Assembly: GCA_011389865.1 (NCBI GenBank)
Contig: JAABTL010000003.1
Location: forward strand, 1 to 64,000
DNA from: Trueperaceae bacterium
Lineage (GTDB): Bacteria > Deinococcota > Deinococci > Deinococcales > Trueperaceae
Direction of reading: 5' to 3'
Length of the DNA stretch: 64,000 nucleotides
Part shown: positions 2,064 to 54,755 of the stretch, piece after piece
Numbering within the stretch: position 1 is the first letter of the stretch
How the letters are laid out: each line of letters opens with the position of its first letter
Translations under genes and position numbers: made by a program
Notes under the pieces: model-generated
The model's input: the letters and a program-made list of their open reading frames with translations, nothing else
Told to the model about the DNA's origin: nothing
The model's database searches: none

Positions 2064-2623
2064 TCAGTCGGTCGCCGCCGCGACCCCCACCTCGTCGGCC
2101 AGCTCGGCCCCACGTTCCAGCGCGGCCCGGTTCGCCGGCAGCAGATGCCGGTGCCGCTCCGGCAACACCTTCTCGAGCGTGGCCGCCACGTGGTCGAGCG
2201 TGAACACCGCGCGCCGCGACAGCAGCGCGCCGACGAGCACCATGTTGGTCAGCCGCGGGTTGCCGAGTTCGGCCGCGACGTCGTCGGCGGGGATGGGGAT
2301 CACGTCGACGTCGGTCCGCCGAACCTCGCGGTCGATCAGCGACGCGTTGACGATCAGCAGCCCGCCCGGCCGCACCAGCGGCTCGTAGCGGTCGAGCGAA
2401 GGCAGGTTGAGCACGATCGCGGCCTCGGGGCGCGCCACCACGGGCGAGCCGATCGGCTCGTCGGCGATGACGACCGTGCAGTTGGCGGTGCCGCCGCGCA
2501 TCTCGGGGCCGTACGAGGGGTACCAGGTGGTGTGCAGATCGGCGTCGAGCGCGGCGTGCGCGAGCAGCTGGCCGGCGAAGAGCACGCCCTGGCCGCCGAA
2601 ACCCGCGATGATCAGGTCGGTCT

Positions 2624-2627
<4 letters not shown>
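2064..2627 (-). CDS. 2-oxoacid:ferredoxin oxidoreductase gamma subunit
   Basis: 187 aa; [21 protein letters not shown]...[19 protein letters not shown], typical gamma-subunit motifs. Confidence 0.92.
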
Positions 2628-4530
<1,903 letters not shown>

Positions 4531-4539
4531 CGTGGCCCC

Positions 4540-4764
4540 CTACGCCTTGACCGCGCGGAAGACGGTGATCGCGGCCTCGGGGCAGGCGATGGCGCACATC
4601 TCGCAGCCGGTGCAGAGCTCGGCGGGGTCGTCGAGCTCCGCGGGGTGCACACCGCGGGCGTTGAAGCGTTCGTTGGCGACCCTGAGCAGCCCCTTCGGAC
4701 AGACGGGGATGCACAGGGCGCAGCCCTTGCAGAGCGACTCGTCGACCTTCACGGTGCCCTTCAT
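4540..4764 (-). CDS. 4Fe-4S ferredoxin (delta subunit of 2-oxoacid:ferredoxin oxidoreductase)
   Basis: 74 aa; CKGCALCIPVCPKG and CTGCEMCAIACPEAAI clusters; first gene of the operon. Confidence 0.9.
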   Translation of the reverse strand: MKGTVKVDESLCKGCALCIPVCPKGLLRVANERFNARGVHPAELDDPAELCTGCEMCAIACPEAAITVFRAVKA

Positions 4765-4869
4765 GCGGTCCTCCTGACTCGTTGCCTCCAGGTTAGCGCC
4801 TGGGGCCTGAGAACCGTGTCCCTTTCGTCATATCCGCCTGGTGTGGTAGGCGGCGCGGCCGGTCTGCCC

Positions 4870-4905
4870 AGGACGTTCCTCACTCGTGCCGAGTTTCACG
4901 AGGTG
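4870..4905 (+). promoter_or_regulatory. Conserved 36-bp hydrogenase-upstream element, copy 1 (dyad CTCGTG-N8-CACGAG)
   Basis: AGGACGTTCCTCACTCGTGCCGAGTTTCACGAGGTG. Aligns without gaps to 10649-10684: 9 + 9 + 9 identical bases flank a Y position and a mostly variable 8-bp spacer. Confidence 0.75.
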
Positions 4906-4946
4906 CGAGGATGCCGGCACGGACTGCCCCAAGTCTCCGGTCAGGC

Positions 4947-4965
4947 ACCCGCGCGTTCCGCGGGT
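4947..4965 (+). promoter_or_regulatory. 5'UTR hairpin immediately upstream of the hydB RBS
   Basis: ACCCGCG-cgttc-CGCGGGT, perfect 7-bp stem, followed by CGGAAGGACGGCGAC-ATG. Confidence 0.55.
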
Positions 4966-4980
4966 CGGAAGGACGGCGAC

Positions 4981-6192
4981 ATGGCCGTACGCAGGCTCGA
5001 GGCGGCCGCGCTGGACGCGCTCTTCGGAGCGCTTCGTCGGCGCGGCTACACGCTCGTGGGGCCCACGCTCCACGACGGCGCCATCGTCTACGACGAGTTG
5101 GACGGCGCCGATCAACTGCCGATCGGGTGGACGGAGGTGCAGGACGCCGGCCACTACCGCGTCGTCCGGCGCGACGACGACGCCCGCTTCGGCTACACGG
5201 TGGGTCCCTACGCATGGAAGCGCTACCTCCATCCGCCGGCCCTGCGGCTGTGGCGCGCAGAGCGCGACGCCGAGGGGGGCTTCGAGCTGCTCGACGACGC
5301 GCACGAGGTGCCCAGGTACGCCTTCGTCGGCGTGCGGCCCTGCGACGTCGCGGCGATCGCCATCCAGGACCGCGTGTTCATGGGTGGCGCCCACGTCGAC
5401 CACGACTACCAGGCCCGCCGTGCGGGCGCCTTCATCGTCGCGGTCAACTGCACCGAGCCGGGGGGCACCTGCTTCTGCGCCTCGATGGATACCGGGCCCA
5501 AGGCCCGCGCCGGCTACGACCTGCTGCTGACCGAGATCGTGGAGCCCGGCCGCAACGGCCAGCGCGCGGAGCCCGTCTACCTGCTCGAGGTCGGCAGTGA
5601 GCGTGGCGAGGAGCTGCTGAGCGAGCTCGGCGGCCGCCCCGCGCGCGACGACGAGGTCGCCGAGGGCGAGCGTCGGCTGGCCGAGGCCGCGGACAAGATG
5701 GGCCGCACGCTCGACACCCACGGGCTGGCCGACGCGCTGCGGCGCTCGCTCGACAACTCCCGCTGGGACGAGCCCGCGGCGCGCTGCCTCGCCTGCGGCA
5801 ACTGCACGCTGGCGTGCCCCACCTGCTTCTGCAACACGGTGGAGGACACGACCGACCTCACCGGCGCCTTCGCCGAGCGCACCCGCCGCTGGGACTCGTG
5901 CTTCACCCACGACCTCTCCTACATCCACGGCGGTCCCGTGCGCGTGTCGCTGAAGTCGCGCTACCGCCAGTGGGCCACCCACAAGCTCGGCACCTGGATG
6001 GAGCAGTTCGGCACCTCCGGCTGCGTCGGCTGCGGCCGCTGCATCACCTGGTGCCCCGCGGCCATCGACCTCACCGAGGAGGTCGCCGCGATCGCCGCCA
6101 GCGCGCAGGCGCGCGCGACCCGGCGGCAGGCGCGCGTGGCGCCGAGCCCCGAGACCGGAAAGGGGGTCGGCGATGCTGCAACCACCCGCTGA
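4981..6192 (+). CDS. [NiFe] hydrogenase-associated iron-sulfur subunit (HydB/sulfhydrogenase beta-like)
   Basis: ATG at 4981 with upstream GGAAGGACGG. Contains [16 protein letters not shown] and [12 protein letters not shown]; first gene of a HydBGDA-order operon. The longer ORF from 3397 is antisense read-through. Confidence 0.88.
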
Positions 6193-10648: not shown

Positions 10649-10684
10649 AGGACGTTCTTCACTCGTGACGGAGTGCACGAGGTG
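10649..10684 (+). promoter_or_regulatory. Conserved 36-bp hydrogenase-upstream element, copy 2
   Basis: AGGACGTTCTTCACTCGTGACGGAGTGCACGAGGTG; dyad CTCGTG-N8-CACGAG; another CTCGTG at 10691-10696. Confidence 0.75.
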
Positions 10685-10792
10685 GACATACTCGTGTCGG
10701 TGAGCGGCGCTGCCGGAGCGCTACGACCCCATCGATCACCAAAGGCTGCCCATGCCGAAAGGCTTCGCCATGGGTCGCGGAAGGACGGCGAG

Positions 10793-10855
10793 ATGACGAC
10801 GACACCCCACGCCCGCGCGGCAACCCGACGCTCGGACCCCGGAGGGCGCCCATGA
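10793..10855 (+). CDS. Possible 20-aa leader peptide upstream of hoxE
   Basis: ATG at 10793 preceded by [34 protein letters not shown]; its TGA overlaps the hoxE ATG (ATGA at 10852-10855). Confidence 0.4.
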   Translation: MTTTPHARAATRRSDPGGRP

Positions 10856-11441
10856 GTGCGCTGCGCGCGGCGGCCGGCGCGGCATCGGGCACGGCCGGCG
10901 CCGCCGGCGGCCCGCCGCCCGCCGACGACCCGCGGGTGGCCCTGCTGACCACCCAGCTCAAGAAGGTGCGCTACCGCGCCGACGCGCTGATCGACGTGCT
11001 GCATGCCGTGCAGGACATCTACGGCTACCTGTCGCCCGAGGTGCTCACCACCGTGGCCGACGCCCTGCAGCTGCCGCCGAGCCGCGTGCTGGGGGTCGCG
11101 ACCTTCTACCACCTCTTCAGCTTCGAGGCCCGCGGCGACCACACCTGCACCGTGTGCACCGGCACCGCCTGCTTCGTGAAGGGCGCCGACGCGCTGATGG
11201 CCGGTGTCACCGAGGCCTACGGCGTGGCGCAGGGCGCCACCCGCGAGGACGGCTCGCTGTCGCTGCTCGAGGCGCGCTGCATCGGTAGCTGCGGCCTGGC
11301 GCCGGTGGCGCTGATCGACGGCGCGGTCGTCGCCAAGGCGACGCCCGACGCGCTGATCGCGGCGATCCGCACCGCGATGGAGGCTTCCGAGTCCGCCGAG
11401 GACGCGGTGCGCGAGGCCGCGGCCGGCGAAGGGGGTGCCGC

Positions 11442-11445
<4 letters not shown>
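10852..11445 (+). CDS. hoxE: NAD-reducing [NiFe] hydrogenase diaphorase subunit HoxE (NuoE-like 2Fe-2S)
   Basis: 197 aa; [40 protein letters not shown]...[16 protein letters not shown]; position in a hoxEFUYH-order operon. Confidence 0.88.
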
Positions 11446-34092: not shown

Positions 34093-34914
34093 TCAGGTCG
34101 CGGGCACGCTGAGGATCGGGATCGGGCTGGAGCGCACCAGCGCGTCGCCGCGCGCGCCCATGATCAGGCCTGCCAGGGCGCCGTGGCGCTTCATGCCGAC
34201 GACGATCGCGTCGGCGCCGAGTTCGTCCGCGAGCTTGGGCAGCGTGTCGATCGGGTTGCCGCCGGCGACGACGATGCGCTCCGCACGCCCTGCCGACAGC
34301 GTTTCGAGGCGCGACTGGGACGAGCCCGCCTCGCCCGGCGGCCCCCCCTCGACGTGCGCCAGCACGAGCTTGACGTCGGTGCGCTCGGCGAACCAGTTGG
34401 CGAAGGTCCAGGCGCCCAGGGCGGCCTCCTGGAAATCCGTCGCCACCAGTAGCCGGCGGACCTGCTGCGTCGGGCAGTCCTCGCGGACGGTCAGCACCGG
34501 GGTGGTGGTGCGGCGTACGACGCGGCCGGCGACGCCGCCGAGGAAGACGTCGTCGAACGGCGTGCGCCCGTGGGCGCCCATGACCAACAGGTCGAAGTCC
34601 GTCGCCAGCCGCAGGAGCTCGCGCAGCGGCTCGCCCCAGACCAGCTCGGTGGTCGCGCCGCCGTCGGTGAGGAGAGCGAGTCGGTCCATCAGGCCGCGGG
34701 TCTCCGCCTGCCGCTCCTCCTCGAGGTGCCGCTGGAGTTCCGGGACGATCGCGTCGGACCCCGTGGGCGGGGAGGAACGGCCGCGGCCCTCCTGGAAGCG
34801 CTGCTGCACGTGCACCACGTGCAGATCCCCCGAGGCGCGGCGGGCGATGTCGACGGCGAGGGTTCTGGCGAGTTCGGCGGTGTGGCTGAAGTCGGTCGCG
34901 TGAAGGATACGCAT
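34093..34914 (-). CDS. Universal stress protein (tandem)
   Basis: 273 aa; MRILHATDFSHTAELARTLAVD...LLVMGAHGRTPFDD...ADAIVVGMKRHGALAGLIMG. Confidence 0.88.
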   Translation of the reverse strand: MRILHATDFSHTAELARTLAVDIARRASGDLHVVHVQQRFQEGRGRSSPPTGSDAIVPELQRHLEEERQAETRGLMDRLALLTDGGATTELVWGEPLRELLRLATDFDLLVMGAHGRTPFDDVFLGGVAGRVVRRTTTPVLTVREDCPTQQVRRLLVATDFQEAALGAWTFANWFAERTDVKLVLAHVEGGPPGEAGSSQSRLETLSAGRAERIVVAGGNPIDTLPKLADELGADAIVVGMKRHGALAGLIMGARGDALVRSSPIPILSVPAT

Positions 34915-35343
34915 GGGTCCCTCCAGCTGAGACGTTCCCTGTCCCGGGCGCCGAATCGGCGCGGCTGGCGGCCCGATGCCGGCGCTCGCCTCATGCTAGC
35001 AGGATGCTGGGGGCACCAAAGGGTCCGGCCACCGTGAGCGGGCTGCCGGGGGTGGTCACGGTGACCGGAGCCGGTCGCGAATCGCTGTTGCGACCCACGA
35101 ACCCGGTACCCCTAGTGAACCGCATCACGATGTGGCGCGGGTCCGTGAAACTCCGACACGCGGTCGCCGGCGCGCGTCGTCGCGCGGCGCACGCGGTCGC
35201 CGACGCACGCCAGCTGCGGTGCGCCGCGCGGCCACGCGCGCCGGCGCCGGAGGCCCTAGACTGAACGTAGGCAAGCGCGTCCGCGAGGTGCCTACGCCGA
35301 CCCGGTCGAGGGGCTCGTGCGCCGCTTGCGCAGGAGGTGCCGC

Positions 35344-35793
35344 ATGTACCGCAAGATCCTCGTTCCGACGGACGGCAGCGCGTGCGCCCAGCACGCGGTC
35401 CACGAGGCGGTCGAGCTGGCGAAGGCGATCGACGCCGAGATCACCTTCCTCTACGCGCTCGAGAACCCGCTCACCACCGGCACCGCCAGCCCCGAGGCGC
35501 TGCCCTACTCGGCGCAGCTGTGGGACGACCTCAAGGCGATGGCCGACGAGGCGCTCCAGGCGGCCAGCGCGATCGCGGAGTCGAGCGGCGTCCACGCCAC
35601 CGCCGTGCGGGTCGACAACCGTGCGCCGGTGCAGGCGATCCTCGAGGCCGAGGACGAACACGACCTGGTGATCATGGGCACCCACGGGCGCCGGGGGTTC
35701 AACCGCTGGATGTTCGGCTCGGTCGCGGAGGGCGCGCTCCGCAGGGCCAAGCGGCCCTTCCTCCTCATCCGCAGCGGCGAGGCCGAGGGCTGA
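35344..35793 (+). CDS. Universal stress protein
   Basis: ATG 35344; MYRKILVPTDGSACAQHAVHEAVELAK...HDLVIMGTHGRRGFNRWMFGSVAEGALRRAKRPFLLI. Confidence 0.92.
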   Translation: MYRKILVPTDGSACAQHAVHEAVELAKAIDAEITFLYALENPLTTGTASPEALPYSAQLWDDLKAMADEALQAASAIAESSGVHATAVRVDNRAPVQAILEAEDEHDLVIMGTHGRRGFNRWMFGSVAEGALRRAKRPFLLIRSGEAEG

Positions 35794-35807: not shown

Positions 35808-36920
35808 GTGAACGATCCACCCGCCGGGCGCGCCGGGCCCGTCGGGCACGTGAGACCCGACGGTCCCGCCGGTCACCGCAACCTCGAGCTCGAGACGCTG
35901 CTCGAGTTGTCACGGGCGCTGGAAGGTGCCCCGACCGGTTTCGAGGCGGCGGCGCTGGCGTTGCGGACGCTGGTCGCCGAGGGTCGCTTCGCCGCGGGGG
36001 AGGTGTGGTGGCGCGCCGAGGACGGGCCGCGGTGGAGGACGATCGGCGCCGGCGCCGATGGCGATCGGCCCGACGCGGTGATCGTCGACGAAGTGATGGC
36101 GTCGGGTGCCCCGCGTCGTGTCGAGGGGTGGTGGCTGATCCCCGTCGCGTCGGAGGGCGTGTTGGGCCTCGGTGGCGGTCCCGACGTTTCGGGCTCGTTC
36201 CTCCTCGGCGTCGCGGAGGTCGTCACGGCGACGGCCCAAGGGGGCCACCTGCGGCGGAGGCTGGAGGAGAAGGAGGCGCAGCGATCGCGGCTGCTGCGGG
36301 CGCTGCTGACCGCCCAGGAGGAGGAACGCGGCCGCATCGCGCGCGACCTGCACGATCAGATCGGCCAATCGCTCACGGCGATGCTCCTGGGCCTCGACCG
36401 GCAGCTGGAGCGTCTGGATCCCTCGGGCGATGGCGCGCACGGCGAACTGCGACGCCTGCGGGGGCTGACGGCCGTGACGCTCGCCGACGTGCGCCGCATC
36501 GCGCTCGACCTGCGCCCGTCGGTGCTCGACGAGTTGGGTCTGGCGGCGGCGCTGCGCCGCTTCGCGCGTGAGCTGCACGAGCGCTACGGCATCGCGGTCA
36601 CCGTGTTGGTCGAGGTCCCCGAGCGACTGTCGCGGCAGGTCGAGACGGTGCTCTACCGGGTGGCGCAGGAGGCGCTGACCAACGTGGTGCGGCACGCGCA
36701 GGCCGCCGAGGCCTCGATCGTCGTCACCGTGTCGCGCGGCTCCGTCCAGTTGGTGGTGGAGGACGACGGCGTCGGCTTCGACCCCGCGGCGCTGGCGCCG
36801 GCCGAGCGCATCGGGCTGATCGGCATGCGCGAGCGACTCGAGCTGCTCGGCGGCAGCCTGCGCCTCGAGAGCGCGCCCGGCAGCGGCTGCAGCGTGCACG
36901 GAAGGCTGCCGCTCCCATGA
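35808..36920 (+). CDS. Sensor histidine kinase, NarL/DegS-type (HisKA_3), cytoplasmic
   Basis: GTG 35808 (370 aa); EEERGRIARDLHDQIGQSLTAMLLGLD...QEALTNVVRHAQAAEASI...VEDDGVGFDP...IGLIGMRERLELLGGSL; no obvious TM helix. Confidence 0.88.
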   Translation: MNDPPAGRAGPVGHVRPDGPAGHRNLELETLLELSRALEGAPTGFEAAALALRTLVAEGRFAAGEVWWRAEDGPRWRTIGAGADGDRPDAVIVDEVMASGAPRRVEGWWLIPVASEGVLGLGGGPDVSGSFLLGVAEVVTATAQGGHLRRRLEEKEAQRSRLLRALLTAQEEERGRIARDLHDQIGQSLTAMLLGLDRQLERLDPSGDGAHGELRRLRGLTAVTLADVRRIALDLRPSVLDELGLAAALRRFARELHERYGIAVTVLVEVPERLSRQVETVLYRVAQEALTNVVRHAQAAEASIVVTVSRGSVQLVVEDDGVGFDPAALAPAERIGLIGMRERLELLGGSLRLESAPGSGCSVHGRLPLP

Positions 36921-37636
36921 GCGGCCGCTTGGACGACGGTGGACGCGCCGGCAACCATGGGCCGCGCGGTGGGTCCGGCGCGCGCGCCGGCAACGGCGTG
37001 CCCGGCCGGATCCGCCTCTTCTTGGTCGACGATCACCGCATCGTCCGCGCCGGGGTGCGGGCGCTGCTGCAGGCCCACGAGCATCTGGAGGTGGTGGGGG
37101 AGGCCGACAGCGGCGAGGACGCCATCGCGCGGGTGCCGGAGCTGCGGCCGGACGTGGTGCTCATGGACCTGTCGCTGCCCGGGATGAACGGTATCGCGGC
37201 CGCGGGCCAGCTGCGGCGGCTGGTCCCGGCACCGAGGCTGGTGGCGCTGTCGATGCACGAGGACGCGGAGTACGTGCAGGGCTTCCTCGAGGCGGGCGGA
37301 TCGGGCTACGTGCCCAAGTCGGCGGTCGAGACGCAGCTCGTCGACGCGATCATGGCGGTGATGCGCGGCGAGTACTACGCGCCGCCGCAGCTGCTCGCGG
37401 AGGTGGCGCGCGCCGTCGGGCGGCCCGACCCGTACAAGCACGTCCGGCTCACCCGCCGGGAACTCGAAGTCGTGCGCCGCATCGCGCAGGGCAGCACCTA
37501 CCGCGAGATCGCCGAGGCGCTGTCCATCTCGGAGAAGACCGTCGCCACCTACCGCGAGCGCGCGGGCGAGAAGCTCGGCGTGCGCAACCGCGCGGGGCTG
37601 GTGCGCTGGGCGCTGGAGCGCCATCTGATCGACTGA
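36917..37636 (+). CDS. LuxR-family response regulator
   Basis: 239 aa; IRLFLVDDHRIVRAGVRALL...DVVLMDLSLPGMNGI...LTRRELEVVRRIAQGSTYREIAEALSISEKTVATYRERAGEKLGVRNR. Confidence 0.94.
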   Translation: MSGRLDDGGRAGNHGPRGGSGARAGNGVPGRIRLFLVDDHRIVRAGVRALLQAHEHLEVVGEADSGEDAIARVPELRPDVVLMDLSLPGMNGIAAAGQLRRLVPAPRLVALSMHEDAEYVQGFLEAGGSGYVPKSAVETQLVDAIMAVMRGEYYAPPQLLAEVARAVGRPDPYKHVRLTRRELEVVRRIAQGSTYREIAEALSISEKTVATYRERAGEKLGVRNRAGLVRWALERHLID

Positions 37637-52004: not shown

Positions 52005-54419
<2,415 letters not shown>

Positions 54420-54755
54420 CTGGGACCTCCTGCCGCCACGATCGCCCCTTGGTAGGGCCGCGGTCGGCACGCGTACGACCCGAGCGCCGATCCCCTCCCG
54501 ACGAGGTGCGGCCGTCCGGCGCATGGGTGAGGACAGGCTAGCGCGGTCGTGCGCTCGTTCACAAGGTAGCAACGTCCTCGTGTGGCACGGCCGCGGAGGA
54601 CGCGCCCAGGGACTCCGGACCCTGAAGCCATGACCCCCGCGGGCCTACGATGAGCACGTCGGAACCGATGCGCCGATCCGGCGCCGCCGTTGGCGGCCTT
54701 GGGTGCCGCCGACGGCGGCCCGTCGGTGGCGTCGTCCGGATGGGAGGTCCCACAC

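Follow-up and report, generated by a model that had tools for sequence, protein, structure and literature searches.

The 64,000-nucleotide stretch of DNA analysed here, hereafter the window, carries two [NiFe] hydrogenase operons side by side in the genome (3.05 Mb, 67 contigs) of an uncultured bacterium, whose nearest named matches are Trueperaceae MAGs (Deinococcota). The first operon, of group 3b, opens with a gene for a sulfhydrogenase beta-type subunit (4981-6192, plus strand) and the second, of group 3d, with the subunit gene for HoxE (10852-11445, plus strand). A 36-bp element precedes each of them, at 4870-4905 and 10649-10684; the preliminary description had placed both copies correctly, and they align without gaps over 30 identities in 36 positions. 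The 3b copy lies in a divergent intergenic region (4765-4980), on the other side of which an operon of ferredoxin and 2-oxoacid:ferredoxin oxidoreductase genes (2064-4765) runs on the minus strand and could be controlled too. In front of HoxE, a 20-codon ORF (10793-10855) has a stop overlapping the HoxE start codon; it is kept in G002 and has its leader, CGGAAGGACGGCGA, in common with the 3b gene. A third copy of the element was found by a position-weight scan of the window at 54546-54578 on the minus strand, where it precedes the phosphoenolpyruvate (PEP) synthase gene ppsA, located 3' of it (52005-54419, minus strand). This site scored 28.4 bits, where the reported copies reach 38.1 and 40.5 and the next site 12.5; the reversed window yielded none.

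Rarity, conservation and targets of the element

The window contains five direct pairs of 36 bp that share 30 identities or more, the reported pair among them, and six Markov shuffles of it contain none; taken alone, the match between the two copies is suggestive. The dyad CTCGTG-N8-CACGAG that they contain was found eight times in the window at two mismatches, against 9.9 expected, which is not unusual. Because the dyad alone is no commoner than chance, the decisive evidence for the element is its conservation before the same operons in other genomes. Scanning the whole genome with the pattern of the preliminary description, at up to three mismatches, returned just the two reported places and no control match. 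The same pattern occurs in 4 of the 61 related genomes searched, and a slightly relaxed form gave 12 sites in 9 of 111 genomes without any reversed-control match; two of these 12 (L010 and L011) apparently lie within the coding sequence of a GTPase and were excluded. Exact scanning of GTDB genomes, one for each species (264 Gb), yielded 10 loci, eight of them in Trueperaceae/Deinococci. The matches in Mycobacterium nebraskense (L018) and in a planctomycete (L015) look like chance.

The element precedes the 3b operon in three congeners (G000, which is the present genome, G002 and G004) and the HoxE gene of the 3d operon in five genomes belonging to two genera (G000, G002, G004, G109 and G035), with partial forms before the 3d operon in G015 and G024. 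Other genera that carry group 3 hydrogenases (G013, G019, G020, G021 and G016) lack the full element; the 3b operon of G016 has a degenerate box at unchanged -10 spacing. G003 encodes both hydrogenases on contigs that stop short of the promoters, so that its missing match is not counter-evidence. The third [NiFe] hydrogenase of the present genome, whose large subunit (L176, G000:C7:50926-52449) spans the whole Pfam model and differs from both of those in the window, has no copy of the element in its surroundings. At most two full copies occur per genome, which is not what a dispersed repeat would give. Genome-wide rarity and conservation across relatives, where orthologous hydrogenase operons are preceded by the same sequence, uphold the cis-regulatory character first proposed, and the 36-bp element is a real, conserved regulatory element.

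Its targets extend beyond the hydrogenases to which it had been thought specific. Besides ppsA in the window, the element stands before pfkA in another genus (G019) and before a NuoL-like gene (G015), and in 15 genomes from five genera across the family related boxes precede ndh, which encodes the type II NADH dehydrogenase. A specificity for the upstream regions of hydrogenase and redox or energy genes is supported, and the boxes before ndh in 15 genomes lead us to view the sites as belonging to a wider energy-redox regulon. The ndh boxes are mostly in inverse orientation and 22-84 nt before the start (94 nt in this genome). Promoter sequences place a TATRCT-like -10 upstream of the ndh box, so binding there would be expected to repress ndh. 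In G001, of the same genus, a one-mismatch box (L107, 1501-1560) lies near a gene that, judged by eye, resembles a globin-coupled sensor. Genus g12 shows two further arrangements. In one (L094, L118 and L119), two boxes are separated by about 1.5 kb, the first immediately ahead of ndh and the second past it, which suggests tandem ndh-like genes with a box each; in the other (L099, L101, L103 and L120), a ComM/YifB-like gene and a probable secreted-protein gene flank a conserved box that has a TGCTA-type -10.

Proposed composite architecture of the promoters

Within the element, conservation is strongest at the left AGGACGTTC, which forms one half of an imperfect palindrome, GGGAC-N4-GTCCC. Aligned with one another, six orthologous 3d promoters have GGACGTTC invariant, their flanks diverge and the -10 region is conserved in most; in G015 and G024 the left box and the -10 remain, but CACGAG, the right arm, does not. 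This invariance, together with the loss of CACGAG from two promoters, runs against the initial choice of the dyad as the core operator. A scan with the consensus left half over seven genomes recovered a broader site family, GGGAC-N4-GTCCCTNGTGA, with 24 matches and none in the control, and the GGGAC-N4-GTCCC box family gave 39 matches against 6 in the control over 39 genomes. The family consensus is GGGAC-G-WW-C-GTCCC, with inner four bases GWWC. The hydrogenase sites are imperfect boxes of the form AGGAC-GTTC-YTCAC, with AGGAC on the left and, in place of GTCCC, a degenerate YTCAC on the right. In the window, the box reads AGGAC-GTTC-CTCAC before the 3b operon (4870-4883, plus strand), AGGAC-GTTC-TTCAC before the 3d operon (10649-10662, plus strand) and, in a diverged form, AGGAC-GTTG-CTACC at the third site (54565-54578, minus strand). 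The dyad lies at 4883-4902 and 10662-10681 on the plus strand and, as CTTGTG-AACGAGCG-CACGAC, at 54546-54565 on the minus strand.

Of 13 sites preceding hydrogenase, ppsA, nuoL or pfkA genes, 12 have a -10-like hexamer, NANNNT, at an offset of 37 or 38 from the start of the box, and 2000 shuffles produced no score as high at any offset; the sites are partly orthologous, their independent number is below 13 and the shuffle P value makes them look more independent than they are. This fixed offset puts TNGTGA at the -35, with a spacing of 17-18 nt, and the centre of the box at about -43, which is the position of a class II activator. Before the 3b operon, the -35 hexamer TCGTGC (4884-4889, plus strand) is overlapped by the left arm of the dyad and the candidate -10 hexamer GAGGAT (4907-4912) begins 17 nt past it. 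The 3d promoter has TCGTGA (10663-10668, plus strand) and, 18 nt past it, the candidate -10 hexamer CATACT (10687-10692), which is NATACT in G002, G015 and G024. At the third site, TTGTGA (54559-54564) and TAGCCT (54535-54540) occupy the two positions on the minus strand.

Across the three congeners, both operons retain the two arms of the dyad around a spacer that varies, and at ppsA the arms are largely retained. The dyad is probably functional, though not universal, and to judge from its sequence looks like a second layer with CRP/FNR (or Rex) geometry. With its centre at about -27, it is better placed for repression or gating than for activation. Scanning the genome for the dyad alone at one mismatch gave about 20 sites, more than the reversed control, whose composition is unfairly matched, the dyad being palindromic; scans of this kind are uninformative without the box and were discarded as evidence. 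One dyad without a GGGAC box, TAGTGA-N6-TCACGA at 35113-35130, sits between divergent universal stress protein genes (34093-34914 on the minus strand and a start near 35345 on the plus strand) and was not counted as a site.

Other readings of the site

The dyad CTCGTG-N8-CACGAG might by itself be the operator of a single dimeric regulator, of the CRP/FNR family by its geometry, with AGGACGTTC as an accessory flank. Neither arm differs between the two reported sites, most 3b and 3d orthologues share both arms around a variable spacer, and the genome encodes several CRP-family genes. The preliminary description had set the site apart from CRP/FNR half-sites; GTG-N8-CAC is nevertheless the spacing of the CRP/FNR operators (TGTGA-N6-TCACA), whose GTGA core it shares, and only the base before GTGA differs, C (or T) being found there. 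Spacing, conserved arms and free spacer are thus those of a CRP/FNR-type site, but both arms are not present at all orthologues: the G015 and G024 3d promoters have dispensed with the right one while keeping the left box and the -10, and ndh is repeatedly preceded by a left box that has no clear right arm. The right arm is more often GCACGA than TCACGA, and a centre near -27 is unsuited to an activator. We consider a single dimer on the dyad unlikely. Rex, which would derepress the promoters at high NADH/NAD+ and leave the left box a minor role, recognizes an operator (TTGTGAA-N4-TTCACAA) of the same GTG-N8-CAC geometry; 36 of the 39 family genomes encode it, the sequence TTGTGAAAGATTGTACAA appears at some ndh sites, and ndh and hydrogenases are typical Rex targets. 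The inner AA-N4-TT is however weak, its AA and TT not being conserved, and G is preferred beside the right arm. Nor do Rex sites have an adjacent counterpart of the GGGAC box, so that GGACGTTC, the most conserved part, is left unexplained. No Rex-like site precedes the rex genes, although rex follows another gene directly and looks operon-internal. A Rex operator appears quite improbable.

The regulon could also be real and its GGGAC-N4-GTCCC box be bound by a protein of another family, such as TetR or another helix-turn-helix dimer, since a motif alone identifies no protein family. The TNGTGA flanks and inner GWWC depart from the SAA and TWWA of the mycobacterial DosR box, but half-site, spacing and central WW are those of that box and the targets overlap the mycobacterial dos cluster, and we give little credence to a different family. 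A simpler origin would be the recent copying of a promoter-leader module, the likeness of the 3b and 3d promoters then owing nothing to selection by a regulator: the operons are adjacent and a 14-nt leader, CGGAAGGACGGCGA, stands before the start codons of both. The element has nevertheless been kept across species while its flanks diverged, and it recurs before the unrelated ppsA, pfkA and ndh, which makes such copying a very unlikely explanation; duplication could account for the origin of the likeness and not for its maintenance. The preliminary description had argued that gene duplication does not explain the similarity; the common leader leaves room for a shared ancestry of the 3b and 3d promoters themselves. 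Least credible of all is an RNA hairpin or leader element acting post-transcriptionally. A 6-bp stem closing an 8-nt loop could fold from the dyad, but folding is no better than in shuffles (z of -0.4, 0.2 and -0.35), compensatory changes are lacking, an Rfam search around the element gave nothing close to the gathering score, and the element, being upstream of the -10, would be left out of the transcript.

Candidate regulators and likeness to the DosR regulon

With somewhat more confidence than doubt, we favour a composite operator-promoter of a Trueperaceae energy/redox regulon, in which the box would most likely be bound by a NarL/DevR-type response regulator. Mycobacterium tuberculosis DosR makes its base contacts through K179, K182 and N183, a K182R variant still binds, and the 20-bp EMSA probe of this regulator is TTGGGGACTAAAGTCCCTAA (PMC5999986). 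The genome encodes eight LuxR/NarL-type HTH (GerE) proteins, and of these only one, an orphan NarL-type response regulator (G000:C3:5843-6523), has the corresponding K-x-x-[KR]-N; its K, R and N match the three contacts in a comparison of helix sequences, not of structures. The other seven helices read AxxKS, NxxKT, NxxRF, KxxNA, ExxKS, RxxKY and, in the window's own regulator, KxxAT. That last protein (36917-37636, plus strand) belongs to the NarL-type pair at 35.8-37.6 kb which had been put forward as a possible regulator, and its recognition helix, EKTVATY, is without two of the three DosR contacts (182/183), which argues against the proposal. The helix of the orphan regulator, SEKTVRNRL, is invariant in all 30 orthologues examined. 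Nearly all family genomes possess this regulator, including those whose hydrogenase operons lack the element; co-occurrence therefore does not set it apart. Its best match among solved structures is VraR (182 bits), followed by DosR/DevR (139 bits), and no DosS-type kinase was seen beside it. In at least eight genomes a CRP-family gene (helix RETVSH) lies within 1.5 kb of the orphan regulator gene, and L165 (5843-8440) shows the two as neighbours. On these grounds the orphan response regulator is the leading candidate for binding the box, and the CRP-family protein encoded about 1.2 kb from it is the leading candidate for binding the dyad.

The DosR box, TTSGGGACTWWAGTCCCSAA, resembles the family box in its GGGAC half-sites, 4-bp spacing, WW centre and overlap with the -35, and differs from it in the inner bases and flanks mentioned above. 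The targets are likewise similar, a [NiFe] hydrogenase and PEP synthase being found in both systems; Hyh, one of the mycobacterial hydrogenases, is an enzyme which we take to be of group 3b. The window has universal stress genes as well, at 34-36 kb. Mycobacterium smegmatis carries a hypoxia-induced cluster beside DevR/DevS with a five-gene Ni-Fe hydrogenase and PEP synthase (PMC2799521), and its dos regulon takes in the hydrogenases Hhy and Hyh (PMC8125079). The Trueperaceae system differs in belonging to another phylum, in its fused dyad and in the degenerate right half at the hydrogenases. Since motif and targets resemble those of DosR and the candidate regulator is not a DosR orthologue, being nearer to VraR/LiaR, we file the element as one that would work like the DosR regulon and not as a DosR regulon. 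Promoters of anaerobic respiration in Escherichia coli also combine a NarL-family site with a CRP/FNR-type site; the pair in Trueperaceae differs from them by its motifs and by a single fixed spacing kept across genes and genera.

We propose that the imperfect GGGAC-N4-GTCCC palindrome, centred at about -43 and overlapping the -35 region, would serve as a class II activator site from which a NarL/DevR-type response regulator, most likely, would switch on the 3b and 3d hydrogenases and PEP synthase, the signal probably being low oxygen or reductive stress. The dyad, at its fixed spacing from the box, covers the -35 and the spacer, and the simplest role for a second factor on it would be to repress or gate the promoter. 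At ndh, where the inverse box follows the TATRCT-like -10, binding would block transcription, and the regulon as a whole would trade NADH oxidation through NDH-2 for hydrogenase chemistry. A bolder proposal, which we offer tentatively and regard as doubtful, is that the DevR-like orphan regulator and the neighbouring CRP-family protein may form a two-input switch on the fixed-spacing composite site, activating hydrogenases and PEP synthase and repressing NDH-2, as a DosR-like dormancy regulon of Deinococcota that would have arisen outside Actinobacteria.

As far as our literature search reached, the control of hydrogenases in Trueperaceae is undescribed. The hydrogenase, sugar-synthesis and ndh sites suggest a switch responding to low oxygen or redox state that has gone unrecognised and is similar to the mycobacterial DosR regulon. 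A defined motif, a short target list and a named candidate regulator make a DosR-like hypoxia programme directly testable in this family, and they raise the question of why [NiFe] hydrogenase and PEP synthase recur under a similar motif in two phyla.
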